Assembly: GCA_964036045.1 (NCBI GenBank)
Contig: OZ038378.1
Location: 161,518,576-161,582,575 of the forward strand
Reading direction: 5' to 3'
Length of the DNA stretch: 64,000 nucleotides
From: Eutreptiella sp. 'Long Island Sound 2002'
Taxonomy: Eukaryota; Euglenozoa; Euglenophyceae; Eutreptiales; Eutreptiaceae
The notes beneath the pieces were generated by a model. That model searched no databases. It saw only the letters and a program-made list of their open reading frames with translations, and was not told the origin of the DNA. Position numbers and translations under genes: made by a program. Below, in pieces: positions 15,993 through 39,880 of the stretch; positions within the stretch are counted from its first letter, which is position 1, and every line of letters starts with the position of its first letter.

Positions 15993-16479
15993 GGATCCGC
16001 CATTTCCAAGCACTATGCAATCTACCTATGTACACACACTAGCAGACTTGAAATTGTTGCCAAGCATAAGAACCCGCCATGGGATAAGAAGTGTTGAGAA
16101 GGTGAGGTAACACTCATAGTAGCTGCCCCCCCCCCCCCAGAAAATTGTGGGCTGAATGGACCGCATCCGAGCACTATGCAATCTACCTATGAAACTTCAT
16201 TGGCGGACTTGAAATTGTTGCCAAGTGCATGGGAAACGAATGGTTGACAACGCGGGGCATTACCCATAGTAGCTGCTCCGGAACTTCTGGGCTGAATGGT
16301 CCCGCCATATCCAGGCACTGTGCAATCTACCAAAACGCATGGGCATACTTGAAATCGTTGCCAAGCATAGGAACCCACCATGGGATAAAAAGCAGAGTGG
16401 TCCTTAATGGGGGGGAAAAAAGTGCTGCATTACACAGCTTTTCCAAAAAAGCCCGCGGGCGCAGGCACACCATGTGTTG

Positions 16480-16650
16480 GCAGTGGGCGACCGGCGGTTC
16501 GTGGCGGTTGGTAGCGGATGGTGGCGGTTGGTGGTTGGAGATTGGTGGTTGATGGTGTTTGGTGGTGTTTGGTGGTTGGCGGTTGATCGCCGTTGGCGGT
16601 TGGCGGTTGGTGGCGAGTGGCGGACGGCAGCGGTTTGTGGTGGGCGGCTG
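16480..16650. repeat. G/T-rich GGTGGTTGGCGGTTG-type minisatellite
   Basis: Irregular 7-14 bp units of GGTGGTTGG, GGCGGTTGG and GGTGTTTGG. It sits in about 515 bp (16,206-16,720) present in the left arm but absent from the right arm of the palindrome, so it arrived after or during arm formation. It ends at a 9 bp perfect hairpin (16,656-16,677). Confidence 0.8.
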
Positions 16651-17989: not shown

Positions 17990-18860
17990 TATCTAGCCAC
18001 CATTCAATCTCCCTAGACGCATTGTTGTTGATTGCCCCAGCCGTCAATTAGGCAGAAGAGAAGGGGAAAGGGCACAAGCAACCATGTTTCAGATTCCCAG
18101 GGACGTGCCCAGTGCCCACGTACAGGGCCCCGATACAGGGCTCTGTGCCTTCGTTCATTGGTCTCAAAGTGAAACGGACACTGCACAGTGGAGGAAGCGC
18201 AACACAAAAGAATGAACATTTGCAAAATCTGTAAAAGCGCGCATTGATGAATTATAAGACAAACATCTGACATGCAGCAACCTGCATATTCGCCCTTTGT
18301 TTGCACAAATCAACTTCGAAACCTGTAACACAAAAAAAGGCAGAACCAAAAGCAACTTTCAAAACGACACATCAATTAAAATGTAACAAGGCATTGCAGC
18401 GAAATGGAACAAACCCATTCAGAGTTCACTGTTGCAACCACACGTCAAAGTACAAAGAACGTTATGATACAAGAACAAGCACAAAACAGGCACAACCTGC
18501 AAAAAATCAACTAATGCTCATTGAATTCTGAACTTCAATTGAGCTTGACTTCTGAATTGCACTTCAAATTCATTATTTAACTTGAAAGCTGAACAAAGGG
18601 GCATGCAAGTGCACACCCGAATAACCCCATGCAATGCATTGACCTAACATGGCGCAGACACATCAGAAAGGAGTTCTGACATGGCAACGAACATGTGGCC
18701 CAGCGCAGGATGTTGACCCATCAGCAGTGCTGATATGCATGGGGTGCTTGCTTGTTGGGGAGGAGAGGGGGACCGGTGTGGTGCGCGTTGCAGTGTCCGT
18801 TTCACTTTGAGACCAATGAACGAAGGCACAGAGCCCAGTCAATTTGAGGTTTGGTGCGCA
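17990..18860. other. Spacer between palindrome arms with a 47 bp perfect inverted repeat
   Basis: Mostly unique DNA without a supported gene. 18,138-18,184 (GGGCTCTGTGCCTTCGTTCA...) is the exact reverse complement of 18,790-18,836, about 600 bp apart. Confidence 0.75.
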
Positions 18861-19029
18861 CGCCCCAAAATCTTTGGGGTCGCTACTATGAGTGTTATTG
18901 TAAGTGTTACAGCACGCTCTCAATGCTTCAACCTCCATGAGGCTACCGGGCCTAGCATTAATTTCAAGTGTGCCGTTGTGTCTAGATTAACTGGCAGTTT
19001 GATATGGCGGGTCCATTCAACCCCAATTT

Positions 19030-20026
19030 TTGAGGGCAGCTACTATGAGTGTTACCTCAACCTTTGAAAACATCATTTCCCATGGTGCGTTCGTACGCTT
19101 GGCCACAATTTCAAGTCCGCTAGTGTGTCTAGGTGGGTCCACTCGCCTCAATTCTTTTTGGGCTACCACTATGAATGTTACCTCACCCTCACAACACTTC
19201 TTGTCCCATGGTGGGCTCCTATGTCTGGGAACAATTTCAAGTCCGCTAGCGCGTCTAGGTAGTTTGCATAGTGCCTGGATATGTCCGCCAATGAAGTTTC
19301 ATAGGTAGATTGCATAGTGCTCGGATGCGGTCCATTCAGCCCACAATTTTCTGGGCGGGGGGGGGGGGCAGCTACTATGAGTGTTACCTCAACCTTTGAA
19401 AACATCATTTCCCATGGTGCGTTCGTACGCTTGGCCACAATTTCAAGTCCGCTAGTGTGTCTAGGTGGGTCCACTCGCCTCAATTCTTTTTGGGCTACCA
19501 CTATGAATGTTACCTCACCCTCACAACACTTCTTGTCCCATGGTGGGCTCCTATGTCTGGGAACAATTTCAAGTCCGCTAGCGCGTCTAGGTAGTTTGCA
19601 TAGTGCCTGGATATGTCCGCCAATGAAGTTTCATAGGTAGATTGCATAGTGCTCGGATGCGGTCCATTCAGCCCACAATTTTCTGGGCGGGGGGGGGGGG
19701 CAGCTACTATGAGTGTTACCTCAACCTTTGAAAACATCATTTCCCATGGTGCGTTCGTACGCTTGGCCACAATTTCAAGTCCGCTAGTGTGTCTAGGTGG
19801 GTCCACTCGCCTCAATTCTTTTTGGGCCACCACTATGAATGTTACCTCACCCTCACAACACTTCTTGTCCCATGGTGGGCTCCTATGTCTGGGAACAATT
19901 TCAAGTCCGCTAGTGCGTCTAGGTAGTTTGCATAGTGCCTGGATACGTCCGCCAATGAAGTTTCATAGGTAGATTGCATAGTGCTCGGATGCGGTCCATT
20001 CAGCCCACAATTTTCTTGGGGGGGGG
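19030..20026. repeat. Three 332 bp tandem copies in right arm
   Basis: Near-identical 332 bp blocks begin at about 19,030, 19,362 and 19,694; each contains two basic units and ends in a G homopolymer of 11 to 16 bases. The left arm has only one equivalent block, so the triplication is specific to the right arm. Confidence 0.9.
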
Positions 20027-21239
20027 GGGGGGGCAGCTACTATGAGTGTTACCTCACCTTCTCAACACTTCTTATCCCATGGCGGGTTCTTATGCTTGGC
20101 AACAATTTCAAGTCTGCTAGTGTGTGTACATAGGTAGATTGCATAGTGCTTGGAAATGGCGGATCCATTCACCCCAAAGTTGTGGGGCGGCTACTATGAG
20201 TGTTACCTCAGCCCCTCAACACTTCGTTTCCCATGGTTGGTTCCTATGCTGGGTACCAATTTCAAGTCTGCCAGTGCGTCCACGTAGTTTGCAAAGTGCC
20301 TGGATATGATGGGTCCATTCGGCCCAAATATTTTTCGGGAAGCTGTTGTGAGTGTTACCTTACCCTCTCTAGTAACAATTTCAAGTGAGCCAAGGTGTGT
20401 ACATAGGAAGATTGCATAGTGCATGGATATGGCGGCTCCGTTCAGCCCAAAATTTTTGGGGGGGGAGCTACATGAGTATTAGCTCACCCTCTCAACACTT
20501 CTTATCCCATGGTGGGTTCCTATGCTGGGCAACAATTTCAAGTCCGCCGGTGCGTCTAGGTAGTCTACATAGTCCTCCTATATAGCGGGTTCATTCAGCC
20601 TAGAGTTTTCGGGGCAGCTACTATGAGTGTTACCTCACCCTCTCAACACTTCCTTCCCCATGGTGGGTTCCTATGCTTGGCCGCCAATGAATGCACACAG
20701 GTAGATTGCATAGTGCTCGAATATAGCGGCACCATTCAGTCCCAAATTTTTGGGGCTGCCACTATGAGTGTTACCTCACACTCCAAACACTGCTTATCCC
20801 ATGGTGGGTTCCTATGCTTGGCAACAATTTCAAGTCCGCTAGTTTGTGTACATAGGTAGGTTGCATAGTGCTTGGATATGGTGGGTCCATTCGGCCCGAA
20901 ATTTTTTTGAGGGGGGGCAGCTACTATGAGTATTACCTGACACTCTCAACACTTCTTATCCCATGATGGGTTCCTATGCTGGGCAACAATTTCAAGTCCA
21001 CCGGTGCCTCTAGGTAGCCTACATAGCCCTCCTATATAGCGGGTTCATTTAGCCTGGAGTTTTCGGGGCAGCTACTATGAGTGTTGCCGCACACTTCATC
21101 TCCCCATGGCAACTTCATCCGCTTGGCAACAATTTCAAGTCCGCCGGTGTGTCTAGGTAGATTAAATGGTGACTGCATATAGCGGGTTCACTCAATCCAA
21201 AGTTTTCCGCGTAGCTACTATGAGTGTTACCGCATGCTT

Positions 21240-21870
21240 TCACGTCTCACCTAGTGTGCACATCAGATGTATTGGAGAGCACCCTCCGAACGTGTAAGCG
21301 CCAGCAATGGGGTGGCTGCAATGATGGACCTATGAGCACGGGTATCGACATTCTACACTCATCCTCTGCTGCCACAGTACACCCCGCCCCTCCCACGTCT
21401 CACTTACCCCCCACCCTTGTCATCATCCCCCCTATAGGGGGATTGTCACTTTGACAAAAAAGCGGGAACCCCCCCCTCCCGGTCCAACGAACACTTCCGT
21501 TCCGATGGTATTATTTTAATTAGGTACTTAATTAGGTACCAGGCGGTTTTAGGTTAAAGGTTTGGGGAAATGAGGGGCTGTTGTGATTGGTAATTTGTAA
21601 AGTAGGTTGTAAGGGAATGGTGTCCCTCAACTACAGGACTGCTATTTCCCACCACGCCTCATTCTCTGCTATAGATGCAGTACCACACTGGTGGGTTGTC
21701 CGTCCCAAAAGTGCCCATTCTGCCCGTGCCAAGAACAACAAGGCCCCCGGTCCTTGAAGGCGCCGAAGGAAAATAGGTTATATTGGAATTGGTTCGGTTT
21801 TCATGCTACAATCATGTGGTGCTACCCCCCCCCCCCCTCGTGGGGGGACCTTCATGACCGGCCTGACCAG
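21240..21870. other. Intergenic; small hairpin and direct repeat
   Basis: No gene. 21,425-21,443 forms a 7 bp stem (ATCCCCC/GGGGGAT) with a 5 nt loop. TTAATTAGGTAC repeats in tandem near 21,515-21,540. Confidence 0.5.
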
Positions 21871-21874
21871 CCTC

Positions 21875-21945
21875 ACCCTATCAATACTTCTTATCCCATG
21901 GCGGGTTCCTGGGCTTGGCAGCAATTTCAAGTCCACCACCACCAG
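21875..21945 (-). repeat. Partial copy of the palindromic-array unit
   Basis: Contains TCAATACTTCTTATCCCATG, GCGGGTTCCTGGGCTTGGCA and GCAATTTCAAGTCCACC, the reverse-orientation core of the 14.9-21.2 kb unit. Confidence 0.75.
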
Positions 21946-21949
21946 ATTA

Positions 21950-23345
21950 TCCAAGGCAAAGGAGGGTTCAGGAGTGGGTGGTTCAAAGATCCCACTGACA
22001 ACACCAAGCACCTCTTGGCCTTGGCCTGGGGCTTTGTGCAGCTCATCAATGGGCCTCCTTTGCCTCCTCGTGCTGCATCCTCTCGGCATTCAGCTTGTCT
22101 TTGTGGCGGCAGGCCTTTTCCAGGCCACTCTACCATCACTTTGCTCTTCTCCTCATAGGCATTGCCCATACCAACCTTGACGAAGCCATTCATTTGGGAG
22201 ACTGCCACTGCACAAAAGAAAAGAAATGGGCAGCGGTGAAAGTAGGGATAGTAGACGGGAGAAATCCGGACCAGCTACCAAGTCCAAATGTGCAGTGATG
22301 CTTTGACCAGAATGAAGGTTTACTGTTCATGGGTGTGCAAGGAAATTACTCTAGGCGGTACGTCTAACACAACCCCCCGAAACAACGAACCACGCAATGC
22401 ACGGCGTGGAATGCATTGCGCACATGTTCCCCACACTTGTGTGCCATCGAGTGTGTCAGCTCTAGAAGCTCATGGCGGGCAGCGCTGTCAAAACACTCTC
22501 AATCAAGGTGAGCCTTCCGGGGCTCCATCCGCAGTGACGAGACGTCCTTTAGTCGTGCGTACTTGCTGTACGTACAAAAATTTGGCATATCGGCTTTGCC
22601 TCTCGTGACACTGTGGGTTACCTCTACACAAAGTGGTGCAAACTCCTCTGAAACGGCTGCAGCGCACCATCGTTTTCCTGCATTGGAGGGGTAGCAAAGG
22701 TTTTTCAAAGAAAAGGGAAAGATCTCATTTCACTAAGGAGCATGCTTCTTTGGAGACCACCCTTTGCAATGCCCAATGGACTTGTATGCAGCACCGCACG
22801 CGGAGTACGTGACCCACAACATGCTACAGTGGGTTGAAAACTGTGGAAGATGGTTGCCAGCTCGTGCACACACATTGAGTGTGTGGAGGGCCTTTCCCAA
22901 TGCAACTGCACTGAAAACGGACGTAGTTTTGGGGCACCGTCCATAGGCACATATTGAGTCCACTGCTCGCTAATTTCAAGTTCATGGCGTTTTAAGCATG
23001 GTCGAGCGCAGAGTTGGGCTGAAACCTGTGAAAGAGAAGCATCCACCAAGGCGCCCTCTCCCCAATCATGCAACTATGTGAAACAAACAATGCCGATCAG
23101 TTCCGTAATGTCTTGCCATGAAGAAACACATATTCGCGGTGAGCGTGCGCTGTCAAGATAGGTGCCATGCCTTCGTAATGCACCTTGCACCATGGCATGC
23201 TTCAGCCACACGAACGCTACTAGGGAAGGGCCCGTCACTATGGCCCAACCTAGCAAGCAAAAGTGGCATGGCCCCCGGGATGTGCCGTCCATGTGGCATC
23301 CACAAGGTGCAATTGCTGCATACCACTGCCGCGTGCCATCACTTT
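21950..23345. other. No recognisable gene
   Basis: Open frames up to about 120 codons on both strands lack domain-like composition, splice context or similarity to anything I recognise. Confidence 0.35.
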
Positions 23346-23640
23346 TCATTCTACCTTACCCCCTCAATACTTCATTTCCCATAGTAGGTTCCTACGCTTG
23401 GCAACAATTTGAAGTCTGCTAATGTGCTTTGGTAATTTGCATGGTGCTCGGATATGGCGGGTCCATTCAGCCCAAAATTTTGGGGAATGACAAGTGTGGC
23501 AATTCAGGGTCAAATGAACTATTGAATTAGATAACGAGTGGGGTCAGCTACGATGAGTGTTACTGCACCCCATCAACACTTCATTTCCCGTGGCAGGTTC
23601 GCGCGCTTGGCAACAAATTGAAGTCCACCAATGTGTTGGG
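23345..23640 (-). repeat. Two diverged reverse copies of the array unit
   Basis: CAATACTTCATTTCCCATAG..GGTTCCTACGCTTGGCAACA at 23,360-23,480 and TCAACACTTCATTTCCCGTG..GCAACAAATTGAAGTCC at 23,570-23,630, both in reverse orientation and with the Ala/Pro-like spurious frames of the family absent. Confidence 0.7.
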
Positions 23641-26085
23641 GATTAGGGTGTGTACGGGTCTGGGACACAAACTCTCCACAAACAAACAAAGCAAAAACTC
23701 AAAGCATTTGTTGCAGTCTGAAGGACACGTAGCCAATCCCAAGGACATCAATGGTATGGGGCACCACAAACTTGAGGGATATGCACAACGTTCCATCGCA
23801 ACCGTAGCTGGTTAACCTATCGCTGTCACCACAGACGTGCTATTCTGTCACACTCATGCGCCAATTCATGGCGCCTCAGGCTTGCTATAATTTGTGGCTG
23901 AATTGTATTCCTCTGCCCCCACCCTTTCGTTCTGCATCAGCGCAGGATGAGAATACGCGAATTCAAATGCGGAAGTGCATGCTGTCTGCTGACCATGTGT
24001 CGCCCTCCCAACCGCAGTGCAGCACCACGTGATGTGTTTCTTGCAATTTAGGAACCGGCATCGCGTGGGCCATAAACTGCGTGGGGGTGGTATTTAAAGA
24101 GGACAGTGAGACGGAAGAACCGTTTCGCAGACATGTTGCACTGTTTAGGGTTGTTAAGTGGCATGCCATGGCATCAAATGACAAAGTAGTGCAAATGTCA
24201 ACAAACACATGCACAAAAAAACTTCTCCGTAACTTGGGTTGGTCACAAAATTGTGCCATTTTCAAGGGTTCAACCTAGAATTCATGACACGGTTGTGGGC
24301 GGATATGCAATCTTGTGATTTGCAAAAGAAACAAGGCACCACTAAAAAATATGGCTGAATCCTCTCATACGGATAGATGCCAACTTGCTATTTTCACACT
24401 TCCACAACAGCCAATGCATCAGGTTGCACTCACAGCCTTTGCTAGGAGAAGACATACTGTGAGCATGAAAGCTTGAGCAAACTCAAAGATCACAAGATGA
24501 GAAAAAACAAAATGGGCATCCCCCATTTCCAAGGTACATCGCAAATATTGTAATTGCTCATATGTCTTGGGGGCGTTTATAACTTTGAAGATGCTCTTGT
24601 AATAAGATAAGTGGAAATTTGATAAGAACGAATATGCGCGCGGCCAAAGAGTGCAAAAATGTTGTGTCACGAGTGAAGAAATGGGTAGAACCCAAACCAC
24701 CACCATTCGCGCAAATATTTTGCAACCGTTTTTTCTCAACATAAATCGACACCATACTATAAACTGTCCCTCACCCAATTATACAAAGATTCACCCACAT
24801 CCCAAAGCATGGGTCACGGTGGATGGGGAGGTGACGGCAAGGAGGTATGGGACAGAAAATGCACAGTTCAAGAAACAAAATTACATTGGCTACATCACAC
24901 GTTCAATTGCCTCATCTCTGCAACCTGGGGCTAGCAATAGAATTACGGGGTTGCCAAGTGTGTGGGCTGCCAGACACATGGGAAAAGAGGGAAGGTAGAA
25001 GGAAGGGAAATTGTGATCCAACAACCTGCTTAAGGGTGGCTTCCCGCATTGTGGGGGGGGGGGATAGAAGGGGGAACTATGAGTGGGCCAACCGGCCGAT
25101 AATTAGAGAAAATAGGGGGGGGGGATTGCCAAAGCGTTCACTCAAGCCTGCATAGATGACTACGGTAACGGGGAGATATGTGGGATGTAGGGGGGGGGGG
25201 GGTACTACTCGAAAGACAAGCTCAAGGAACAAGTGTGGGCGCAGTCAAGAGTATTATGTGGCCTTATCATCAGTCAGGAACGACTCAGGGAAGTCCCCGC
25301 CACAAAATACACCCCAAGAGGAGATTGAGGTACTTGTTGGGAGCAAAACTATGGCCTACAAGGGGAGAAAGAAGACGAAAGTGCTCACAGCGGGCAATCA
25401 CGGTTCGACAAGGACCAGACGTCATAGATGAGGGGTCCACAACATGTGAGCACTTGTGAGTCCTCACATTATGGCTATGCACCTTTGTCATCTCTTGTAG
25501 TCCAGCTCCCGTCTCCCCATGAATTGCTTGGTGGGGGGATGGGTGGATTGAATCATGTGGGCAAAACAAATAAGGTTGAATGTGTGGACAAAGGAGTCGG
25601 CGAAGAAGAAAAATGGAAGAGGAACCGGTTCGAGGGAACCTATCTTCCCTTGACCATGACCATGGGAGTGATCAATGACCAGCAAATGCAAGTGCGGTCG
25701 TAGGTGTTGCAACCTTCTCATTCAAACAAAAGAGAGGAATATCCCAAACATGTGATTTGGTCCTCTAATGCATAAATCATGTGCCAACCGGCATGACTTG
25801 ACTTTGCAGTGCAGATATGTTGCAAACTTGTGATTCAAAGGTGCTTGGGAGAACCCCATGAGTGCTCGGAAGATCCACAATTTATACTTTACTACCAAGG
25901 CCAAGCATGGTTGTCCACTGCTGCGAGCTTGTGATTTCAACAAAAAAGAAAGAACACAGCGGAGCGAAATCTCATGAGTTCAATTCTTTGATGCATATTA
26001 TATGTTGACCTGCCATGCCCACTTGGGCCTCCCATGGCAAGGGTCATGAAACCCTCGATGCAACTGTTGAGCGCGCTTGCAGAAA
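23640..26085. other. 3' flank of the SET-RecQ-transposase gene; no gene supported
   Basis: About 2.4 kb of non-coding sequence. 24,110-24,310 resembles 34,080-34,360 (shared phrases include GAATTCATGACACGGTTGTG). Several G homopolymers occur near 25,050-25,200. No terminal inverted repeat of the neighbouring transposase gene could be recognised by eye. Confidence 0.35.
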
Positions 26086-29000
26086 TCACTTCTTGTTATG
26101 CTTCTTCGCCAAACTGATGCAAGACTTTAGGTGGTCCTTGGTGATTTGCACCACTCTACACTGGCATGTCTGCACCGTTACGTTCCGGAAACCACACTCA
26201 CAGGAAAATGGGACTTGTGTCACAGCGATACACTCCATTTCCACCTTGTCACGCTTGTCACGTGCCAGCTTGTCAACCCGATAATGCATGTCAAGTCCCT
26301 CAATTTTTTCCACCCAATCAACCTTCCAGCCGCTCTTCATCTCTTCGCGTGCAAAGGCAAACCAAACTTTGGACTTGTCGGTGGTATATGTTGCCATAAT
26401 GCTGTTGAGGGCGGGAGGTGAATCCTTTACATGCTTCAATGTGACTTGTCGAGTCTCTGCAGCACCACATGGATTCTGCGTCAAGGCCATATCATCATCT
26501 TCCGAAGGAATGACGTCGGGTGTGCTTTGAGTTCCAGGTGTGTTTTGAGTTTGTGACGGTTGCGAGTACTCATGCAACTCTGCGGGTTCCTCGTTGAACC
26601 GCACCTTCTTGGAACGAGGTTTTGCCTCGGCACTTGTGCCCTTTCTCTTGGTACCTTTCTTAGGTTTCCCATCGTTGACATAGCGGTCGCCCCTTGGTTG
26701 TCGTTCCTTGGCCGGAGCCTTCTGTCTTGTCCGCAATACCCAAAACCTATCCGCTACTGTGTCAGAGTACCGTTCCACGTTTTGCCTCTGCAAACCAACT
26801 AGGGCATCAGTTTCCGTGACAATACGGTACTTGTCAACCAAGCTTTTGCCCTTCGCCTTCACTGGTCGATGACTGCTCTCCACCGCATTGCTATCCCGCG
26901 TGCTAGCTACCCAGTCCGCAAACGTCTTCCCTTGATGCAAATGACAAAGCAACGCATCCACCTCCGGTGCACGCCAGAACTTTATGAAACCCTCAAGGGC
27001 TTTGTAATGCTTTGTCAGCCAATCCCACATCTCCGCACGTGCCTCCTTTGACATGGAAGGAATGGCCCTGCATCGTTCTTTGAACATTGCAGAGGCAATC
27101 TCGCTGTCTATCTTGTTGGACCACTCCTCCACACATCGCAGGAAGTGAAGTAGGCATCCTTGGAACACCCGGACCACAAAGGCTTCAAACTCATCATCGG
27201 ACAACTCAATGTTTTGCTTCTTTAGGTACTCTTTCAGAGCGGACTTCGGTCCCTTGAGCTGGGCCTGCGAAAAATCCATGACCACTGTTAGCCACCGCAA
27301 AGGATTGAAATTCGGGTCGGTCTCCTTTGTCAAGTCGAGGAACTTGAGAAATGCCTCATGATAAAACCCAGCATCTTGCTTTGAGGTAGCCATTCGGAAC
27401 GTGGTCCACCATTTGGTCAAGTCCTCGTCAAACACCACAATGTTGAGAAGGTACTTCATAAACGTATGGTCCCAAAATGTTATGTCAACCTCCAAAACCT
27501 TGCCTTTTGCCGCAATCTTCAACATGCCGTCACTAGCAAAGACAGGCCTTTCAGGCGTGTTGGTTTTGACAGACCGAAGATAATTTGTCATGTCGTCTGG
27601 CAGCCAATATGCCTCGTCTTTGAGCCACCGCTTCAACAAATGATGGGCATCTTCACAATCATCCCTCTTCAACACTAAAGCCCGTTCTTTGAGCTGCTCA
27701 ATCCTCATGGTGTTTGTGTACATGGTGTTCTCGCCCGGCGGTGTCTTGCCGGTTGTCAGCTTCTTCATTACTGCCTCTCGGGGCGTGAGATTGGGGTCGT
27801 CAATGAACCACTGTAAGATCTCATCATCCAAGTGTGTAGGCGGCTTGAAGGCTTTTAGCACTGGGTGAGAGTGTCCAGCCCAACCATTCACACTGGGTGG
27901 GTCATCGCCAGGAGCCAACTCCAACGTGTCTCTGCGGATTAATGCAAGAAGTCGAAGGCGGTTGTATTCATCAGGTTCCACGGACCCCTGGAACAGAACT
28001 GGGTAGAGGTGAAAAATGCGGACGTCACACCGTTTTTTCTGCATTTCTCCAAGTTGGCAGATCACGGTTTGGGCGTTGTTGTCCCTGGCCCGGCAGGAAT
28101 TTGCTTTGCAAACGAGCGCGCCAGCGCAAGTCCACGCCTGCGAGGCTAGGTGGCAGCCAAAACCTTCATCATATCCAAAATATTTCTTCACGTGGCTAGA
28201 CCGTGTTAGCTCAAGGGATGCTGGAAGTATGTCGTCGGTCCCATAAGGCAAGTCGTACACATCTTCTGCCACGTACAAGGTGTCACACTTTGGACAATCA
28301 ATGGGCTTGTCAAGCTTCACATATTCCCTTTTCTCCAGAAGCTGAAGGAGCTTTGGCTTTGCTTGTAGGCGCTGAGCTCGGGTGGATGGGCCTTCTAACA
28401 CCGTGCGCCGTTGTCCGGGCACCTTCTTCTCGCACTGTTCAAGTGCGAGGGACATGGCAACAGCATAGCAGTGCTGGCAACGGTAGCCACCAGCAGTAGA
28501 GCCGTCCTCAGCCACTAGACCGCATGTCCCCGCTGCTTGCTCCAATCCTCCCCTTGAATTCACGGCAATGCTCACGTTGCAAACTTCTGAATTTGATGGC
28601 ATCACCACGCAAGCTTCAATCTTTAGTCCAAGCGCTTCCCTTGGAGTCCAAGCGAAGTGGTCGATTTGGGCTGCATGCACCTCATCTACAGTGAGAAGGG
28701 TTCCACGAAATAGCCGCTTCACATCAGCAGTCGTCATAGGAAGCGGGTAGGCATCCTCCAGCGCATCTGCAGCATGCTCACTTAAATTTTGAGGCGCTTG
28801 CGGCAACGCCTTTTCCAAATGTAGGATGTACGAGTCTTTGTCATTGAACTCCACTTCCCCAAGCTTCAAATTCATAGTCACACTGTCGATGTTCGGGATC
28901 GCTTTCACCAACTCCCAATCCATGCCTTTCATGATGACAGCCCTCCATTGGTCTTTCGAGCCCTTGCTCCCGCAAGCATGCTGGCTAGCAATGCCCACCT

Positions 29001-31628
29001 CAAAGAGAGCATTACAAAGCTCCTGCCCATATCGCTCGTAATGGTCTTTGGGTCGCACCCCTTGAATGAGGTCTAAGCAGTGCCCAAGGCAAATGCCGTC
29101 GCTTTTGTCGCACAAGGCTAAAGCCGGAAGAAAGAGGCCAAGCACAAACCCCGCGTCTGTTGGTGGCCTGTTCTTCACGCAGTTATCACAGCGAGTGCCA
29201 CAAGGCTCCAACAGCACGTGGTCGGAATGCTGGAACAAATTCTGCCACCGGCAACCTGGGGTGTGCATCAACATATACATACATGTGTAGTCGTTCAAGG
29301 TGAGGTGGTAATTTGCATGGGCCTTGACCTTGTCTTTGTGCCAGTTGGCAAGGGTACGCAGGGAGTGCTGGTGGTATAGAATGTGAACCTCCCCGCAATC
29401 TGACGTACCGCGGGCAAGGCGCCCCAATAGCTGAATCAGCTGCGTTATGGAGGATGGCACACTGGTGAAGATGAGTGTCCGCAAGCCGGGGACATGCCAA
29501 CCCATTTCCAAAGCAGCAGTGCAGCACACAATATCGATGAGCCCTTGCTCCAAGTCCTTAAGGACGGCCTCACGGGTAGAAGATGGTGTTGCACCAGTGA
29601 AGCTCGCCACTTTAAAACCCTTCTTCTTCAGCATATTGACCATGTTCGTGCACTTTTCGACGTTGGTGAAAAAGATCAATGTCTTGCCCCTTACAAGGGG
29701 AAGGACCAAGTTCAGGAGCATGACGTCTCTTTGAGGTTTCACCGGTTGAGCGTAGTGGTGAAAATCCATTGATATTTCTTCTCGGTAGAGAATGCCACGG
29801 ACGTTCACTGCATTTTGAAGGTGTAGGCGGTCGATAATGGCCTGTTGCTCAGGTGTTGTGGCCGTTGCTGTGCATGCGTACCACGGCACGGTGGGCAGTC
29901 TTTGTCGGCAAATCCCAAGCTCCGTCCATTGCTGCCCAAATGTTTTGTCACTTCGGGCGACCTTGTGAGCCTCGTCTGCAACAAAGGCCACAGGATCCGA
30001 ATCCACCAACTTGTCTAGGGCGTCGTTGGACAACAACACCTTCTCAGGAGTGGTGTACACCATAGCTGCACCTGGGGAGATGTTCGGAAACGGGGTGTTT
30101 GCCTCCAACTTGTACGCCGCAATCCCTAACCGTTCACATTCCTGTAGCTGTGTGGTAATAATTGCTCGCAAAGGCTCAAAAACAATCACCGGTTTACGAG
30201 TGATGTGCGCAAGCATTTGGGCTGGGAGTGACTTGCCACTGTTAGTTCCCGAAACACAAAGCACGTCACGGCCGTTGAGTAGGGCACGCAAGGTCTTTTT
30301 TTGGTGCGGATAAAGTACTTTGCCAAGGGCATGCTCCGCCGCCGCAATTTCAGCGCCCCAATCCGGTCCCTGGTCGATGTGTTGCGAATCGTAGCAATCA
30401 GGTTCCACCTTTATTTTTGTATCGTAGAGATGCACGCGCCTCTCAAGTAGAGCATCAAGGTGGCGCCCAGCTTCTGCAATTTGTGCATCAAGATCATCCT
30501 CGTCATCATCGTCCTCACCGTGTGCTTGACCCGCCAAGGACTGACCGGCCGAAACATCTATCCGGCTTTGTGAATGGCTGTCCACCTGATTGTTTGGCTG
30601 GTCGGTAGGTCCGTTGGCTGACCGGCTGCCTAACGCGTTGCCCAATTGGCTAATTGGGTGGCCGTCTTGGTGGTCCCCTGGCTGTATGTTCGTAGGGGTG
30701 TCTATGTTGCTGGCTGCCTTATCACTTGGCTCGTTGTGTGATTCGCTGATTGCGTGGCTGTCAAGCTGACTGTTCAACTGATTTTCTGACGTCTCTTTTG
30801 GTTGAGGGCTGGGGGCCATGTGTGATTGTACTAAGCCATTGGGATCCTCTGTAACAGTAACCATGTGCTCGGAGCGATCCCAGTAGGTGGAGCCGTAACT
30901 GACAAATAACTCCTCTGCCGGCTTAATATCTCGCAATGCTTGCAAGAAGCACACGGGTAGACATCCTTCATGAAATTCCTTAATAATGAATTTCACATTG
31001 CAAAATTTGCCGGCATCATTGGCGAAAGATGCTGCGCCAAAACTCCTGCCCAAAGGCGGTTGTCGAATACCATCAATTCCCAACTGTTGCCTGTGGAAGA
31101 TGTGGGACGAATGCAAGGACGGGATAAAAATATTGCCCTCCACGTCATGCATGGATGTTTTCCCCGGCGAGATCTCCCATTGTGCCAACAACGTAATTGC
31201 CCACTACTGTCAGGAGTACCAATTTAAGCGCCTTCCGGCTTTGGGTGGTCAAATGCCCTTGAGAGTGTTGCAAAACGCAGCAGAATATGTAGAGCACATT
31301 GGCAAAAAGCATTGGATGAAATCCCACAAAACTTGGTGGAGGAAGCACATAGGGTCAATGGCACATGAGACCTGATTAGTGTACGGTAGTAGGATGAGTC
31401 CCCTTTGGAGTTAATGGTTTCCATTGCTTCATCACGGGCTATTAGCCGTCCCTCCATAAAGGTAGCGAGCTCGTTCTTCTTGATGAGGCAGTTTGTGAAC
31501 AACCCATTGCCGGCATCATTCAACAAGGAGGGTTTCACCACCAGCTGCTTGGCTACAGTACCATACTGTGGTAGCAACTTGGTTTGAACCAGAAGATCAA
31601 ATTGGGCTTGCAAAGGGTGGCCGTTCAT
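26086..31628 (-). CDS. SET domain - RecQ helicase - MULE-like DDE transposase fusion
   Basis: Main exon 26,086-about 31,203 (1,701 codons from 31,191) plus a 5' exon from ATG 31,628. The 5' exon holds the SET start (NDAGNGLFTNCLIKKNELATF) and the main exon its end (NDAGKFCNV, ALRDIKPAEELFVSYGSTYW, residues ~45-105). After a disordered acidic linker comes a RecQ-like helicase: motif I SGTNSGKS 314-321, DEAH 406-409, TATA ~442, motif VI QLLGRLARG ~587-595, and RecQ zinc ligands Cys647, 664, 668, 671 (CGTRCDNC). Residues ~1230-1445 read as a MULE-like RNase-H-fold transposase: Asp1236, Asp1306, C-LLH 1346-1349, Glu1438 (NAVESSH). A basic NLS-like stretch (~1501-1521) and a degenerate SWIM-like Cys cluster (Cys1664, 1666, 1676, 1678) follow. 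The exon joint is unresolved: AATCAG/GTCT leaves phase 2, while the nearest acceptors (31,204-31,207) need phase 0. Confidence 0.82.
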
Positions 31629-31759
31629 GGTAAATTGCAGGAAAAAAACAACTGAGGACAAAGACATAGGAACCAATGCTTGCCCCGCATCTATGGGGTC
31701 ACCACGTAAGTTTGAGTGCTAGTGCACACTGCCCGCATAAAAGGGTGCATGCAGTCCAA

Positions 31760-33180
31760 AATGGTGGGGGCACCCACTATGAGTGTTGCCTCATCCCCTG
31801 CACATTCAGTTTGTACCTTGAGAAACAATGCGAAGGCAGTCATTGCATTTGGGTAGATTCCGTAGTGCCCGGATATGGCGGGTGCATGTAGCCTAGATGT
31901 TTGTGCGCAGCTACTATGCGTGTTGCCTCACTCTCACGTGTTTGGGTGGATTCCACACTGCCCGGATATGGTGTCTCCCTTTCGTGCGGCATTCTAGGGG
32001 CGGCTACTATGAGTGTTACTTCACCCGATGAACACTTCATTTCCCAACGCAAGCTCCTACACTGGACGATAATTTCAAGTCCGGCGGCGTGTTTAGGTGC
32101 ATTTCATAGCGCCAAGAGATGGCTATTATGGCTATTAATACTTAACTCCATTAACACTTCGTTTCCCAAAGTAAGTTCGTACATTTGACGACAATGTCAA
32201 GTCCGGAGGTGTGTTTGGGTAGATTGCATAGCGCCTGGATATGACATGTCCATTGCGTCAAGCATTCTAGCGTCCATTTCGTCCATAAGCCCGGGGGCGT
32301 CTACTGCGGGTGATACCTCACCCCGTCAACAATTCATTTCCCAACGCAAGTTCCTACACTTGACAACCATTTTAAGTCCGGCGGCTGATTTGGGTAAATT
32401 GCGTAGCGCTAAGGCATGGTGTTTCCATTCCGTCCACCATTCTCGGGGCACCTACTATGGGTGTTACTGGACCCCATCAACACTTCATTTCCCAACGCAA
32501 GCTCCTACACTTGTGGACAATTTCGATTCCGGCGGTGTGTTTGGATAGATTGCATGGCTCCAAGGTACGGTGTGGCCATTCCGTCCTGCATTCTAGGGGT
32601 AGATATTGTGAGTGATACTTGACTCCATGAACACTTCATTTCCGAAAACAAAATCCTACATTTGATGACAATTTCAAGTTCGGCACTGTGTTTGAGTAGA
32701 TTGCATGGCTCCAAGCTATGGTGTGTCCATTCCGTCGGGCATTTCGGGCATTCGGCGACCATTTTATCCAGAAGTGTATGGGCAGCTACTCCAGGTGATA
32801 CCGCACCACGTCAACAATTCATTTCCCAACGTACGATCCTACACTTGACGAGAATTTCAAATCGGATGGTGTGTTTGGGTAGGTTACATAGCGTGAAGAT
32901 GTGGGGTGTGCATTCCGTCCAGCATTTGCCAGGCAGCTAGTGTGTGTGCCACTTGACCCATGAACGCTTCCATTCCCAACGCGAGTTTCTGAAGTTGCGA
33001 ACAATTTCAAGTCCGCTAGTGTGTTTGGGTCGCTTACATGGTGCCCCATTTTGGTGCGTTCATTTGGTCCACAAGTCCGGAGGCAGCTACTCTTGGTGAT
33101 TCCTCACCTCGTCAACAAATCATTTCCCAACGACCGTTCCCACACTTCACGACCATTCCCAATCGGGGGGTGGACTAGTG
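31760..33180 (+). repeat. Diverged subfamily of the ~165 bp array unit
   Basis: Eight or nine units in one orientation, each with CAACACTTCATTTCCCAACG, CAATTTCAAGTCCGG, GTGTTTGGGTAGATTGCATA and CTACTATG.GTG. It is clearly related to the reverse strand of the 14.9-21.2 kb units but much more diverged (Ser/Pro-type spurious frames). It lies between the SET-RecQ-transposase and Ulp1 genes. Confidence 0.8.
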
Positions 33181-34826
33181 CATCCCATACCTCCACCCCG
33201 TCCAACTTGCCTTGTCAAATATCATCATAGAATAACATCACACAAACCCACGGTCTTGAATTGTCGGAAACCTTTGCCGGGTTGTAACGAAGACCGTGCG
33301 TAGCGGATGCATCTATGCCACAATCAACATGCAACATTCTAGTGCAATCAGACACACTGATGTTTTTTCTCCTTTTGGGGGATCAGAAAAAAGAGGGGGT
33401 GTTATTTCAAGAATGACCCGTCAATTTTGGGCTCGGAAAAAGGGGCAGGCGTTCTTTATTGTACAAAAAAATTGCAGGCAGAGCGGCAAAACCTGCCAAA
33501 CAATCGGAAATGAAGAATTTTAGCCCGTGTTCATAGCAACATACCTTGGGCAAGACAACAAGTGTACAAACACAACCAACACTCAAAGTTTTACCACTTT
33601 GACTAGGTGCCACCTTAATCCTAGCAGGGGTTTGGTTGAACTGCAATCATCATGTTCACCAAATTCGGGGACATAGAAAAACCGTGGGGTCACCCCGCAC
33701 CACCGGAGGGTATGGAAACCCCCAAAGTCGATGGCCCCTGCCGCCCATAGGTCTGGTAAGATTGCATTTCCTCCACAAATCCAAAATTGGGGGGGGGGGG
33801 GAGCTACGCTGATCGGTGACTCACTTGCTCACATCTATTTCCCATGGCTGGTTACTATGCTTGGAATTTTCAAGTGTGCAAGTGCATTTGGGACAATTGC
33901 ATGGTGCCGGTTGGGATTTTCTCTCATGTACAAGGATTGTATTGAAAAATCTTTAGGAACACTGCACTGAGTGATGACATTCATTGTCCATGCATCTATC
34001 TAAGGAAAAGAATACAACGTTGTGGTTAACCAACCGGACCAAAAAACAAAACCCATAAACCTGCTCAAGGGGGTGTTGTGCTCCTTAGAGTTGCTAGGTG
34101 GTGAGCCATGGAATACCATGCATCAAATGGTGATATCACTGCAAGCGTTAAAAGTGCAAAGCCAAAGCCGTTAAACAGACAGTTCGAACGTTGATGCTAT
34201 TTAGAGTTGTTGAGTGGTGTGCATGGAAACACATGCATCAGATGATGATGACACTACAAAGGTTAAAAAGCACATACACAAAAGAAATTTGGGCCATTCA
34301 CAAAACTTTGCTCAATGTTCAACCATGAATTCATGACACGGTTGTGCAGCGCAAAGATTCTAAGCAAATTTATTAACTCTTCATGGAACGACCATATCAC
34401 GTCACACTTGAGGCGCCCTTTTTTTAATTTGTAACACATGTCCATCGTCCAACACGACAAGTGGCAAATGGGTTAGCACCAGATCATACAAAGACCACCC
34501 AAATCCCATTTGCGGCAAAGTGGAGTATGGGCAACCATCGAGTATACATATGTTGCAACCTCCTGATCCTTGTGCGAATGTAACAAATTGTATGCGAACG
34601 GCCAATGGAGGCCAACATGCAAAACAAATAGTGGAAGGAGCGAATGGAGAACACACGAACGCCTTCTTTGCCATTTAGGTCGAAACATGGTTGGTGCACT
34701 TGATCACATTGAGGGTTTTTCACCATAATAGGTGTAATCACGGGCAACGGCTCCACACAATGCAAATCAAGAAAGGGGTATGCGGTCATTGACTAAAGGC
34801 CAAAAAAAATGTAATCTACGCAACAC
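33180..34826. other. Intergenic with one lone array unit and a local duplication
   Basis: No gene supported. 33,805-33,920 is a single diverged array unit. 34,085-34,165 and 34,198-34,265 are two related copies of a segment containing TTAGAGTTG.TGAGTGGT and CATGCATCA.ATG, also related to 24,130-24,200. Confidence 0.45.
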
Positions 34827-37064
34827 TTAGTTGGAGCTCACCATGTTGCTGCCTCCATGACCCTTTCTTGGCTTGGAGAAGATTCGCTTCCGTTTATAAG
34901 CAAGTTTTTGAGGCCTCCCCGCCCCAATCCTGCTGCCACCATGCCCATTTTCCTTCGCATGGTGAAGTCCTTGAGGTGAAATGGGGCTACCCACGGGGAA
35001 CCAAACCAACCAACCCTGCTGCCGCACCTCATTCGATGCCATGCCCTGAACAAATGTTTCCTTATTTGTATACGCCCTAGTGCCTTGCCACCACTTCACA
35101 AAACTGTCGAAACTTCCCTCCTTGTGGGAGGGAGATGTAAACAAGAAATGAGGTTTGGCACTCCCCCGCCCCCCTAGGCACACTGCTAACATCCTCACAA
35201 TATCAATGTCGGGGCAGGGTTGAACAATCCTGGCTTCCGCATCTGCTGCCTTTAGATCTGCCGACAACGTTGCCATGACCTTGTAGAAGTGCTCAGACCG
35301 CTGAGCCCTCTGTAGCAGGAGCCCTTCCATCCATTTGTGAAGACTTTCGAGGAGTGCATAGCACTCCTCAACAGTGAAAACATCGTACCGCTCCTGGGTG
35401 ACTTCATTGAGATTCAGCAAACCGTCCCGTGCTAGGGCTCCCAAAATTTTGCTTGCAGTGAAGCCACAACGTGGCTGCCCATCTGCTGCTCGTCGGACCT
35501 TTTTTGTTGGATTCAAAGGCGTGGGGACCTGGCGTCGGAAGCCGGGCTGGCTCCAGCGTTGAACTTTCACATTCGCGCCAGGCACCGCCCTACGCACTAT
35601 GCTGGCAAGGAGCTTGCACACTCGTCCAATGACTGAAGAAGTGGCAGCTCTTGCCTCAAGAATCTCAACCTCCCATTCCAACCCACCCTCACTCCTTGTT
35701 GCTTGGGCGATGACAACAAGGCAGTGGCCCACCCCATCAAAGGCACCCCCTGTACCTCGGACATCTCTTCGCATATCTTTTGCCTGCGCGGTTCGCTTGG
35801 CCTGACCCTTTGGTGCAGGCTTAGTGCAAGCATCGGGTGCTTCCGGCTCCAAGAAGCGGTTTATGCATATGCGGCGCAAGAAGGTTAGCGCAACATGGCG
35901 GCTCAAAGGCTCAGGGAGGTTGCCTTGCCAATGGCGAGCTAGGAGGTCAGTGGAAAAACCTTGCCGGTATTCAACCAAAGCAACAAGGTTAAGCTGCGCC
36001 AAAAGTGGGTCAGTGTCGGGTCGATCAAGTTTCAGTAGCCGTTCGCTCGGAACATTCATCTCGAAAGCCATGACGTCCTCAGGGTTGTTGAAATACTCCT
36101 TGACAGGTCGAATGGTGGTGTCCCATTCTCCGGAGGAGTTTGCTTGCCCAAGTTGTCCTTCCATTTGTCGAAGTGCACTCACAAAAAAAAGCCCCCGAAC
36201 CAACACCATGTCCAACTTGCATTCCCCTGAACATGGCCACGGAATAGTAGAGAGTCCAACGGGGACACCTTCAACAAAGTCCCCGCCAGGCCTGCCGCTG
36301 CCAAAGATCCAACTAAATTTTCTTGTCCTTTCCTCCTTGGAAAAATACATAGCGGTTGGGCCATCTTTGTTGGGACCTAATGGTGTAGCCCAAAGAACCC
36401 GAACCTTATCACCTACCTTCAGAACACCTCTTGCCACTTGATCGGCGACACAAAGGGCTGCAACAGGGGAGGCCTCCTCCATCCCATTTTGAGTCCCCTT
36501 CCCCGTACTGTCCGCTCGTGTTCCCAATTCACTCTCCACATCTTGGAGTCCCCTAACCCTATCACTCGAAACTGCAATCGGAATTATGGGTGGGGCTAGC
36601 ATTGTGGTTGTGGCTTGGGGTGTGGCCAGAGCTAGGGTTGTGGCCCGGGTTGAAGCTGGGATAGCAACCAGGGCTGGGGCTGGAGCCGCGCTGACGGTTG
36701 TGGCTATGGTTGTCGCTGGGGCTAAGGATGGAGCTATGGCGGCGGATGGACTTGGGGTTCGGGCAAAGGAGGCGGCTGGCATTGTGGACGGGGCCGGGGC
36801 TCGGGTGGGGCCGGGAGTTGTGGTTGGGGTTGTGGTTGGGGCTTGCACTGGAACTTGAACCGCGGTTGTGGTTGGGGCTAAGGATGGGGCTAGGGCTGTG
36901 GTAGTGGCGGTTGCTAGGGTTGGGGTTGTCGTTGTGATTGTGCATGGGGCTAGCGTTGAGGCCAGGGCTGGGTTGGGGGCTAGGGTTATTCCCGCAATTG
37001 GGCTTGAAGCTGACTCGGAGGATAGGGCTCGGGGGGGTTGTGGGGATGGGGCTGGGGTTAGGGC
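34827..37064 (-). CDS. C-terminal part of Ulp1-gene product, separated by an in-frame stop
   Basis: 745 codons in the same frame as the Ulp1 exon, starting directly after TAA 37,067-37,065. The first ~170 residues continue the Ala/Pro/Thr-rich linker. They are followed by a globular-looking region (KVGDKVRVLWATPLG, RKFSWIFGSGRPGG, TLFLRRICINRFL-like segments) that I cannot assign to a family. The C-terminus carries an AT-hook-like GAGRPQK and a basic stretch (YKRKRIFSKPRKG), suggesting DNA binding. An internal start at 36,848 exists (GTG-type) but no good ATG. Either the stop is a disabling mutation, is read through, or is removed by an intron in the repetitive linker. With the 5' part the intact product would be about 1,285 residues. 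Confidence 0.6.
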   Translation of the reverse strand, partial: ALTPAPSPQPPRALSSESASSPIAGITLAPNPALASTLAPCTITTTTPTLATATTTALAPSLAPTTTAVQVPVQAPTTTPTTTPGPTRAPAPSTMPAASFARTPSPSAAIAPSLAPATTIATTVSAAPAPALVAIPASTRATTLALATPQATTTMLAPPIIPIAVSSDRVRGLQDVESELGTRADSTGKGTQNGMEEASPVAALCVADQVARGVLKVGDKVRVLWATPLGPNKDGPTAMYFSKEERTRKFSWIFGSGRPGGDFVEGVPVGLSTIPWPCSGECKLDMVLVRGLFFVSALRQMEGQLGQANSSGEWDTTIRPVKEYFNNPEDVMAFEMNVPSERLLKLDRPDTDPLLAQLNLVALVEYRQGFSTDLLARHWQGNLPEPLSRHVALTFLRRICINRFLEPEAPDACTKPAPKGQAKRTAQAKDMRRDVRGTGGAFDGVGHCLVVIAQATRSEGGLEWEVEILEARAATSSVIGRVCKLLASIVRRAVPGANVKVQRWSQPGFRRQVPTPLNPTKKVRRAADGQPRCGFTASKILGALARDGLLNLNEVTQERYDVFTVEECYALLESLHKWMEGLLLQRAQRSEHFYKVMATLSADLKAADAEARIVQPCPDIDIVRMLAVCLGGRGSAKPHFLFTSPSHKEGSFDSFVKWWQGTRAYTNKETFVQGMASNEVRQQGWLVWFPVGSPISPQGLHHAKENGHGGSRIGAGRPQKLAYKRKRIFSKPRKGHGGSNMVSSN

Positions 37065-37470
37065 TTAGGGTGTGGCTACAATTGTGGTGACGGGTGATCC
37101 TTGGGTTGGGGCCAAGGATGGAGTTGGCGTTGGGGTTGTGGTTGTGGTTGCGGTTGGTGCTCCGGCTGATGCTTGGGCTGGGGATGCGGCTGCGGCAAGG
37201 GTTGGGATTGTGGCTTGCCGGGTAGATTTGGCATGGGCTGTGGCCTGGGCTGGTATAGGGACCGCGGTCTGGGCGTTGGCGGAGGTTGTGGCGGAAAGGA
37301 CGCCTTGGGCCGGGGTTGTGGTTGGGTCTGTGGCTAGGGCTAGGGCCGGGGATGGGGCCGGCGTTGGTGCTTGGGCTGAGCCTATCACTACGGCTGTGGT
37401 TGGGACAGGGACAAAAGCCGTGGCTTCAGGTGGGGTTGCATGTGTGGCTTCAACTAAATCATTATATCCA
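36562..37470. repeat. Linker-coding low-complexity tract, G-rich on plus strand
   Basis: Irregular repeats of GGGGCTAGGGTTGTGGTTGG on the plus strand encode the Ala/Pro/Thr-rich linker on the minus strand. Dense G-runs could form G-quadruplexes. The in-frame TAA of the Ulp1 gene lies inside it. Plus-strand frames here (Val/Ala/Gly repeats) are artefacts. Confidence 0.75.
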
Positions 37471-39379
37471 ACTACCGCTTCACCTTGCTTACACTGGCTT
37501 CTCTCGTGGGATGTACCTCGGGTGGAGCTTCGTCCCAGAAATCGTGAGATGGCCCCATGCAGCTCTTGCCGAAAAGCAGTCGGGTTGAAATCCGGGAAGA
37601 GTTCGGTTGATCGAAGGGGAAGATGGGAGAATAGACATTCTTGCAGTTTGGGCACTATCCCTGAACGTTCATGTGCAAGGAGCTTGCCAAACCAGCATAC
37701 AAATACCCCACAGTCCCTATTATTATCTTGCTTTCGAACCGGGACCATCTTGACTTCACCAAAATGGAGCGTTGGGGCATTCGGCTCAATGGATCTCCTT
37801 GCCATTAGAAACATCTGGATTTTGTCACACATTTGCCGAGAGATGAATGCTGCCCCACCGCGGCCCGAGTCGAAAACACACAAATGAATGACCAGTCCAA
37901 CGGGTAGCACCAAAACACCAAAAAAATGATTTCCGGTGTGCACTGGGAAAAAAATCTTTTTACCCAGCAATTGTGACTTCCTAAATATCTCGGTAGCAAC
38001 CTTCTCAGGCCCGTTTTTCAGCATTGTGGCCACTGACAAAGGAAGAAAAGCAATGTCAGAGCTCAAGTGAGACAGATAGTAGTCGATGACTTGGGCATTT
38101 AGCCATCCCCGATGAGACCCCGCAACATTGATACACCGGTCAAGGTCTGCCGCACTTACTAGCGCAAAGTCATCAGCCTCGGTAAAAACATCGTTCCCTC
38201 CATTCTCAGCAGCCTCCTCCATATCCACGTCCATCGGGCTGGCTTTAGAACGTGAATTTGGCAATGGCAGTTGAGGCGTGGTGGTGTCGGGGGTGCCCAC
38301 GCTAGCAGCGCCGATGTTGAGTGTGTTGGGAGTGGCCACAATGGTCGTAGTGTCAGTGCCGGCACTGGACGTGGACTAAGAGAACAAAAGAGTGCTATGA
38401 GTTGGTGCCCTCTATGAGTGCAAGCACGAAGTGATGGCATTGCCAGACTCAAAAAGGGCATCTACACGATTTTGATGCAAACATGAAGCACACACCGTTG
38501 GCCATTGATGCTGCTCCCTAATCTCCTCCAAAGCCATCTCTGCCGAAAGGGCAACATCACGAGATGAGCGTCAGAGCTAAACATTGGTTGCAGTGACCGC
38601 ACTTCAGGTTGGGTGGTAGTACGAATCAGCATGGTAGCCGCGGCTGTAGCGGGATTCGTCGTGGACATGCCGGTGATTGCTGCAAAGCCTTGTCACTTGT
38701 GCTAAATGGGTAAATCACTGCACACGTGAACTCAAAATTGATTCCATGAAATTCAATATGGACACCAACACATACCTTTGGCACTTGAGCATCATCCCTT
38801 GTACCCTGCGCTGGAACCAACTCTGCCGGATGCGCAATTTCATGGGGCCAAGGTTTTGGGCTAGGTTTAGATGCTGAGGATGGTGAAAGCGGTTGATGCG
38901 CAGCAGCGGCAATGTTGCTTGTGTTGGTCGCGGTGATGGACACACCAGCACTGGTGGTGGACGTGGCCCTCGGTACTGTCTGAAATGAAAATGGTAGTGC
39001 TTTGAAACATTGGAACCCCCCAAACCCCGCCACGTGTCCCACATACGTGCATTCAGGTACATAGCTAATGCGTGGACAAAGGGTGCCATGTAAATTTGTG
39101 CATTCCAAAAGAAGAACTCTAATAGTTCCCTAACGGCTTCCTATGCAACGTCAAGGTCCCTTCATTCGCATTCAGTCTGCAGGAATCATGAAAAGATTTA
39201 TCAACTTGCAAAGATCCATGTCCTAAGAGTTCAATTAAGCAAGGCAAGCTGCAAGCAACAAGGCACAACACCTGATTTGTTTCCCCATTCCGAATCCTTT
39301 TTTTCAGCAAGAGGCGCTCCAACTTCTCCTGTGCCTGCAGCGCCGCCTCCGTCAATTCGTTGGCGACGCCATTAGACAT
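37065..39379 (-). CDS. Ulp1-like (C48) cysteine protease gene, 5' part
   Basis: Three exons in consistent phase 0: 39,379-39,272 (ATG, 36 codons, ends CAG/GTGTTG), 38,979-38,776 (68 codons, after TTTCATTTCAG, ends AAAG/GTATGTG), and 38,375-37,065 (after TTCTCTTAG). The third exon has the Ulp1 fold markers RGWLNAQVIDYYL, then catalytic His (GNHFFGVLVL), Asp (CVFDSGRG), Gln and Cys (RKQDNNRDCGVFVC), so the H-D-Q-C set is intact (genomic ~37,930 to 37,710). Such proteases remove SUMO-like modifiers; versions are carried by many MULE and KDZ transposons. The frame then enters an Ala/Pro/Thr linker and meets TAA at 37,067-37,065. A further exon-like piece at 38,679-38,498 cannot be joined in phase and looks like a decayed duplicate exon. 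Confidence 0.75.
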
Positions 39380-39479
39380 GGTGACTACTAACAATGACAA
39401 ACACTCTAAGATTGTGAAACACGTTGTGTGCGGTTTGAGCGTAGTGAGCACTCACGGCTCTTCAACTTAACAAGGAGGC

Positions 39480-39880
39480 AGTGGCGTACATGACGCGTTA
39501 ATTTCACCGGCCCCAAAACATTTGGGTGGAATGCACAGTGCCTAGATAATATGTATCTATTTAGTCTACGGGTTTTAGTGGGGTGGCGCTTTGGCCCCTC
39601 CAACACTTTGTGTCCCATGGTGAGTTCCTTTGCTCGGCAACAATATGACATCCACTGTTGTGTTTGCGCACATTGCAATTGCTTGTACATGGAGGTTCAT
39701 GTGGTCCACAAACTCGGGGGCAGCTACTCCAAGTGTACATCGATGGCATCAGTTTCAAGTCTGCTAGCGTGTTTGGGTTCAAGTGCACCAAACTGCTGTC
39801 TCAACAAGGGGATTGCATGCAACACCGACAAAGCGATGAAGATCATGACACAGTGACACGACTTCATTTGTTTTGAACAC
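39480..39880 (-). repeat. Diverged array units upstream of Ulp1 gene
   Basis: GGCCCCAAAACATTTGGGTG, CCAACACTTTGTGTCCCATG, GTTCCTTTGCTCGGCAACAA and a second unit with GGGGCAGCTACTCCAAGTG match the reverse strand of the 14.9-21.2 kb family with many changes. Confidence 0.6.

Follow-up and report, generated by a model that had tools for sequence, protein, structure and literature searches.

A 64,000-nt stretch of the genome of Eutreptiella sp. 'Long Island Sound 2002' (GCA_964036045.1; 2.28 Gb in 2,205 contigs), hereafter the window, covers positions 161518576-161582575 of contig OZ038378.1 (C1 below) and carries a gene predicted to encode a SET domain, a RecQ helicase and a putative D-D-E transposase core in one polypeptide. 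This fused gene probably encodes a transposase that has its own RecQ motor and SET domain and belongs to a giant Mutator-like (MULE-like) DNA transposon. The reading draws on the joining of RecQ and SET in one predicted spliced chain, on terminal inverted repeats (TIRs) and target-site duplications (TSDs), on D-D-E and CxxH motifs, and on traces of past constraint. We most likely see here a giant, highly diverged MULE-like element, for which we infer transposase activity. That the element works like a MULE is better supported than formal MULE membership, because the transposase domain itself is unconfirmed. Coordinates without a contig prefix are those of the window; other contigs are also designated by C and a number.

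The initial annotation described a single minus-strand open reading frame of 1,701 codons, and this frame is indeed uninterrupted at 26086-31191. The longest stop-free frame within window positions 1-43900 has 1,705 codons, as against 283 in 100 base shuffles. The 1,701-codon frame opens with a TTG codon, and its first 33 residues fall in predicted intron sequence. The predicted gene and its domains are as follows (frame residues are those of the 1,701-codon frame):

31372..31628, minus strand: predicted exon 1, with an ATG at 31628 and the start of SET; open and with the same splice site in all five full copies
31091..31371, minus strand: predicted GT-AG intron of 281 nt, with splice sites shared by all five full copies; it improves the SET E-value from 0.047 to 1.3e-7
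26086..31090, minus strand: predicted exon 2, with the remainder of SET, the RecQ helicase, a Cys/His-rich middle, the D-D-E region and a Cys-rich tail
30892..31511, minus strand: SET domain, interrupted by the intron and spanning residues 40-152 of the spliced protein (Pfam SET 1.3e-7; weak PDB similarity to EZH2 and SETD7)
29023..30315, minus strand: RecQ helicase core, frame residues 293-723 (Pfam and alignment to 1oyw; zinc cysteines at 29179-29253)
26857..27546, minus strand: putative transposase core, frame residues 1216-1445 (motifs only; profile match absent)

The search for further genomic copies with the same modules, proposed in the initial annotation, was productive. A six-frame search of the genome (28 of 440 first-look candidates scored; copy counts are therefore lower bounds) gave 31 rows, among them five full-length, stop-free copies (residues 1-1701, 99-100% identity) on C1, C11, C528, C571 and C23. 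The predicted spliced frames are open in all five and encode 1,751-1,753 amino acids. C528 and C571 are small contigs that could be assembly fragments. A 500-base stretch of non-satellite sequence within the satellite region is 100% identical between C571 and C11. The two are possibly alleles, although their coding sequences differ by 21 counted changes, and the independent open copies may therefore number four. Frameshifted or partial copies lie at C1:197.5-197.7 Mb, C4:70.9 Mb, C2:55.4 Mb, C1:84.2 Mb, C1:84.3 Mb and C6:12.7 Mb. Separate occurrence of helicase and transposase, named in the initial annotation as a possible refutation, does not hold for the main family: the fusion is kept in the five full-length and several of the frameshifted copies. 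However, an array at C2:187851899-187866440 (minus strand) consists of RecQ-only fragments (71-79% identity, stops present) in which the D-D-E region is unmatched.

The RecQ-type helicase with its zinc-binding cysteines, as first proposed, is well recovered. Pfam finds DEAD (residues 294-447, 1.8e-13) and Helicase_C (498-594, 1.3e-16) in the 1,701-codon frame, and the closest solved structures by sequence belong to the RecQ family, with E. coli RecQ first (1oyw, 1.7e-28, residues 293-723) and BLM second (1.5e-26). Cysteines spaced CX16CX3CX2C at residues 647-671 align with those of E. coli RecQ. RQC and HRDC domains, which are frequent though not universal in RecQ helicases, have no Pfam match in the frame at E<=1. 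Relatives in the protein database searched comprise seven distant helicase-type proteins and two partial frames, P0008 (22 member sequences) and P0009, at 97-98% identity to the SET-RecQ gene. No relative was found in viral contigs or prokaryote genome contigs, collections that are eukaryote-poor or confined to close word matches, such that this absence means little.

On the unspliced frame, SET appears only as a weak Pfam tail match (residues 73-100, E 0.047), and the end of a SET fold that had been read in this frame is thus present and weak when taken alone. The frame at 31224-31676, just 5' of the helicase frame, encodes a SET-like N-terminal half, and joining 31628..31372 to 31090..26086 by the predicted splice completes the model (1.3e-7, positions 1-105 of 105), in agreement with the proposal that SET starts in an adjacent 5' exon. 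An alternative intron acceptor slightly upstream was dropped, as an in-frame TAG would remain. Toward the C-terminus, D1236, D1306, C1346xxH1349 and E1438 are present as motifs, in the order expected of a MULE D-D-E core with its CxxH insert.

The element extends well beyond the gene and also takes in a second gene, coding for a Ulp1 protease, together with a satellite array, features that go beyond the initial annotation. The window copy and those on C11 and C23 share ~99.3% DNA identity from 11726 onward, with unrelated flanks to the left; at the other side, identity between the C1 and C528 copies ends at C1:161602300 (~window coordinate 83725). From these two limits the window copy is 72.0 kb long. 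Delimiting the element as the gene alone, or as arrays of a 151-bp repeat, was rejected, since near-identity reaches 11726 and continues beyond 64000. The main parts of the element in the window are:

11726..64000, minus strand: in-window part of the giant TIR element, drawn from copy identity; genes on the minus strand; extends to C1:161602300
11726..11875, plus strand: left TIR, of which 138 bp match the right end in inverted orientation (88%); the outer GGATG of intact copies is absent
43901..64000, no strand: array of a 181-bp satellite within the element (97% matches), which reaches ~C1:161594694

The satellite totals ~32 kb and has a matching position in each of the four further full copies. 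Second left ends lie in or beside the satellite region of C11 (C11:30391683) and C571 (C571:60356), as nested or tandem copies. Diverged ~151-bp repeats in both orientations are dispersed in the element (14864-23633, 31743-33172 and 41700-42575).

Both ends recur throughout the genome. The left end has at least 41 matches (28 over all 400 bases, one over 5-400; 40 of 77 candidates scored) and the right end at least 41 (24 over all 300 bases; 40 of 76 scored). Copies whose ends were paired by position and strand measure 0.57 kb, 2-4.6 kb, 11.6 kb and 21.7 kb. The gene-bearing copies are longer: two at C1:84 Mb measure 39.5 and 40.5 kb, the window copy 72 kb and the C23 copy 84 kb; if the ends on either side of the decayed C2:55.4 Mb gene belong together, that copy would measure 96 kb. 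Short copies with the same two ends (0.57-4.6 kb), resembling non-autonomous derivatives, occur at C15:56891348-56891919 and at C15:57.5, C14:44.2, C19:26.8, C2:95.2, C2:45.3 and C18:40.7 Mb.

Target sites were compared at 16 loci, with both ends read at each. Perfect 9-bp TSDs flank six, seven of nine bases agree at C18:40.7 Mb, and the other nine have none. The perfect cases are:

C4:141.16 Mb: perfect 9-bp TSD CCAGCACCC
C1:84.28 Mb: perfect 9-bp TSD AAGCCACAG
C3:117.3 Mb: perfect 9-bp TSD CCTATTTTG
C5:112.1 Mb: perfect 9-bp TSD GTTCTGCTG
C19:26.8 Mb: perfect 9-bp TSD CATGGCCGC
C2:95.2 Mb: perfect 9-bp TSD CTCATGGCG

The copy at C1:84.28 Mb (40.5 kb) contains a broken fused gene (residues 271-1218 and 1193-1701, with two TGA) and an open 1,182-aa Ulp1 frame. 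It thus shows that an element containing the gene has integrated with a 9-bp duplication of its target. Together with the five open copies and the TIRs, the six TSDs bear out the proposal of a mobile element. A host gene or an assembly artefact was rejected in view of the five open copies on separate contigs and the TSDs at six loci. We likewise give almost no credence to a host gene spread by segmental duplication with fortuitous repeat ends: some copies (at C1:84.22-84.32 Mb and C1:197.5-197.7 Mb) do look as if they lie in clusters or were duplicated along with neighbouring sequence, but the inverted ends are fixed, flanks on different contigs are unrelated, and the 9-bp TSDs contradict it.

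Comparison with the older C4 copy gives a dN/dS of 0.47 (nd 87.5, sd 52.5 over 1,565 codons, one stop excluded; simple uncorrected counts), with 0.44 for RecQ, 0.41 for the middle and 0.57 for the D-D-E region; the C4 copy retains too little SET for this domain to be included. These ratios suggest past purifying selection on the RecQ, middle and D-D-E regions.

Several results weigh against the gene being the element's own transposase. Pfam finds no transposase, DDE or MULE domain in residues 1060-1480 or 1200-1480 at E<=10, where all sub-threshold matches are unrelated, and the whole 1,701-codon frame is without a Pfam transposase match at E<=1; PF10551 does not recognise the D-D-E region. 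AlphaFold models are of low confidence (mean pLDDT 32.8 with two sequences and 43.7 with one) and lend no structural support to a DDE fold. The ten pairs formed by the five near-identical copies have dN/dS values of 0.63-1.42, which show no purifying selection and, at 2-9.5 synonymous changes per pair, are uninformative, and substitutions between such copies are not rarer in the exons than in the surrounding DNA. Nine of the 16 loci lack a 9-bp TSD (the window copy, C23, C15:19.3, C15:56.9, C15:57.5, C14:44.2, C2:45.3, C2:55.3 and C1:197.5 Mb), and a TSD is proven at none of the five intact-gene copies. The pair C15:19315077/19335410, kept among the nine, joined two left-type ends and is probably mispaired, a right end lying at C15:19319628; for C1:197.5 Mb and C2:55.3 Mb, too, it is uncertain which ends belong together. 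TSD absence as a trait of the whole family is rejected by the C4:141.16 Mb and C1:84.28 Mb copies.

The MULE-type core described by the initial annotation thus stands in its motifs and finds no match in Pfam. The outcome that this annotation had named beforehand as a refutation, a lack of any DDE profile match at residues 1230-1445, is what the profile searches gave. We infer the D-D-E module from motifs and context, notably the MULE-type ends of the element; if real, it is strongly diverged.

Ordinary MULE transposases are numerous in the genome and could work on the element in trans. It is conceivable, if unlikely, that these enzymes move it in Pack-MULE fashion, the SET-RecQ protein being a captured passenger or serving a regulatory role. 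All 150 PF10551 places scored (of 739 candidates) pass the family cut-off, the D-D-E region is without a profile match, gene-less short copies exist, and a WD40-coding piece (see below) shows that the element carries other genes. This view is opposed by the correct order of the D-D-E and CxxH motifs, by constraint on the D-D-E region like that on RecQ, and by the finding that none of the 150 scored places overlaps the gene copies or the window element. No other transposase domain was seen among the element frames run through Pfam.

The window copy has an unusual junction with its surroundings:

11054..11725, no strand: left flank, outside the element, repeated directly past its right end; second copy at C1:161602301-161602974

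The copy is exactly flanked by a 672-bp direct repeat: its right flank matches 11054-11727 (674 bp, 99.55%), and the similarity breaks off at the left junction. Only the window copy is known to have such a repeat, which may stem from aberrant integration, from repair or from assembly. At C23 no similar flank repeat was found within ~13 kb of the left flank. Taken with the RecQ motor and the nine of 16 loci without a 9-bp TSD, the repeat would also fit helicase-driven replicative movement (rolling circle or break-induced replication) in place of cut-and-paste. We hold such a route to be improbable in the light of the TIRs and the six perfect 9-bp TSDs, and Pfam finds no Rep nuclease in the frames tested. 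The same features distinguish the element from Helitrons, which are without TIRs and TSDs and combine a Rep nuclease with a helicase.

A second gene is linked to the fused gene:

34830..38375, minus strand: Ulp1/C48-protease gene (Peptidase_C48 5.2e-7), upstream of the SET-RecQ gene on the same strand

In the C11, C528 and C571 copies it forms a single open frame of 1,182 aa; an in-frame stop interrupts it in the window copy (37065-37067) and another one in C23. A genome search gave 15 rows, which reduce to 13 loci (one weak row at 3.2e-6 excluded, two C4 rows merged); 12 of these 13 also have the SET-RecQ gene, the exception being C2:112.99 Mb. Pfam matches nothing in its C-terminal part (frame 34827-36848), which could have a function not yet recognised. 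Beyond the window, the element's right part contains a WD40-coding piece (1.9e-16; C1:161598817-161599332, minus strand); part of this piece is shared with C23 at 99.8%, and it is possibly captured host sequence.

A minus-strand frame at 10346-11797 has a SWIM-like CxC...H motif (by eye; no Pfam match) and crosses the left end, which places the element within or next to another gene or transposon. Farther left, a DIRS-like retroelement (3160-7068, plus strand) has reverse-transcriptase (6.5e-18) and tyrosine-recombinase (1.1e-7) frames, and inverted repeated segments (2711-3058 vs 7117-7636) lie around it.

If the fused protein is the transposase, its C-terminal D-D-E region would bind and cut the TIRs and join them to the target with a 9-bp stagger. 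The RecQ motor could unwind or remodel DNA while ends are processed, strands transferred or gaps repaired, and may aid the movement of large elements. The SET domain might methylate histones or another protein and in this way alter silencing of the element, and Ulp1 may remove SUMO-like marks. More tentatively, a helicase-powered cut-and-paste DDE transposase with its own RecQ and SET may allow the MULE-like element to grow to 40-84 kb with its satellite and to place new marks on its own chromatin. Integration into an unwound target may then sometimes misfire, with long duplications of the target (the 672-bp repeat, for example) as the outcome. Cut-and-paste transposons of eukaryotes are usually short and depend on the host for unwinding and repair. 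The fusion of SET and RecQ to a putative transposase makes it testable whether a motor lifts the size limit of DDE transposition and whether a transposon writes its own histone marks, and a giant TIR element with tens of kb of satellite is a possible route for the spread of satellite arrays.

The fused protein shares the helicase core and zinc cysteines with RecQ, BLM and WRN, and differs from them in being part of a transposon-encoded chain and in the unmatched RQC and HRDC. HarbingerS elements have a TSD class different from that of the MULE-like element and belong to the Harbinger clade. They too are DNA transposons with a SET methyltransferase gene, and the available text on them has no visible mention of RecQ (PMC12730594). 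The same text reports SET genes in Phytophthora MuDR families, and SET in transposons, MuDR included, is thus already known. SETMAR/Metnase likewise fuses a SET lysine methyltransferase to a transposase (PMC9062482, in part); it is a lone primate gene with an Hsmar1 (mariner) transposase and without RecQ.

RecQ sequences are known from fungal subtelomeric repeats (PMC4522978, in part), and the available portion of PMC3985635 has no RecQ-transposase fusion. No such fusion, and no MULE this large, was found in the literature searched, which consisted of titles, abstracts and passages of some papers; descriptions may exist in subscription papers, most of which lay outside this scope, or in the Repbase Reports, which did so too. 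The initial annotation knew of no described transposase with the SET-RecQ-transposase order; the searches agree with this as to RecQ, and SET-bearing transposons are known. A review of giant transposons gives Pack-MULEs of up to 7 kb in a cited report and red-algal En/Spm elements of 16-20 kb, and the words 'RecQ' and 'satellite' are absent from its main text as available (PMC6431247).

MULEs have TSDs of 8-11 bp and TIRs of 14-500 bp according to the part of PMC6446971 available, and those of arthropods measure 1.4-10.0 kb (PMC13359780, in part). The Eutreptiella element resembles them in its 9-bp TSDs, its 138-bp TIRs (88%) and, by motif, its D-D-E with CxxH; it differs in having RecQ in the same chain, in gene-bearing copies of 39.5-84 kb, and in a D-D-E region that PF10551 misses. 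Rehavkus, a group of MULE relatives, has a minisatellite or tandem array before one TIR, a 9-bp TSD and TIRs of 26-400 bp (PMC6446971, in part). The element departs from Rehavkus in its ~32 kb of 181-bp satellite (not a minisatellite), its SET and RecQ domains and a PHD finger not found by Pfam, and is like it in combining a tandem repeat array, a 9-bp TSD and long TIRs.

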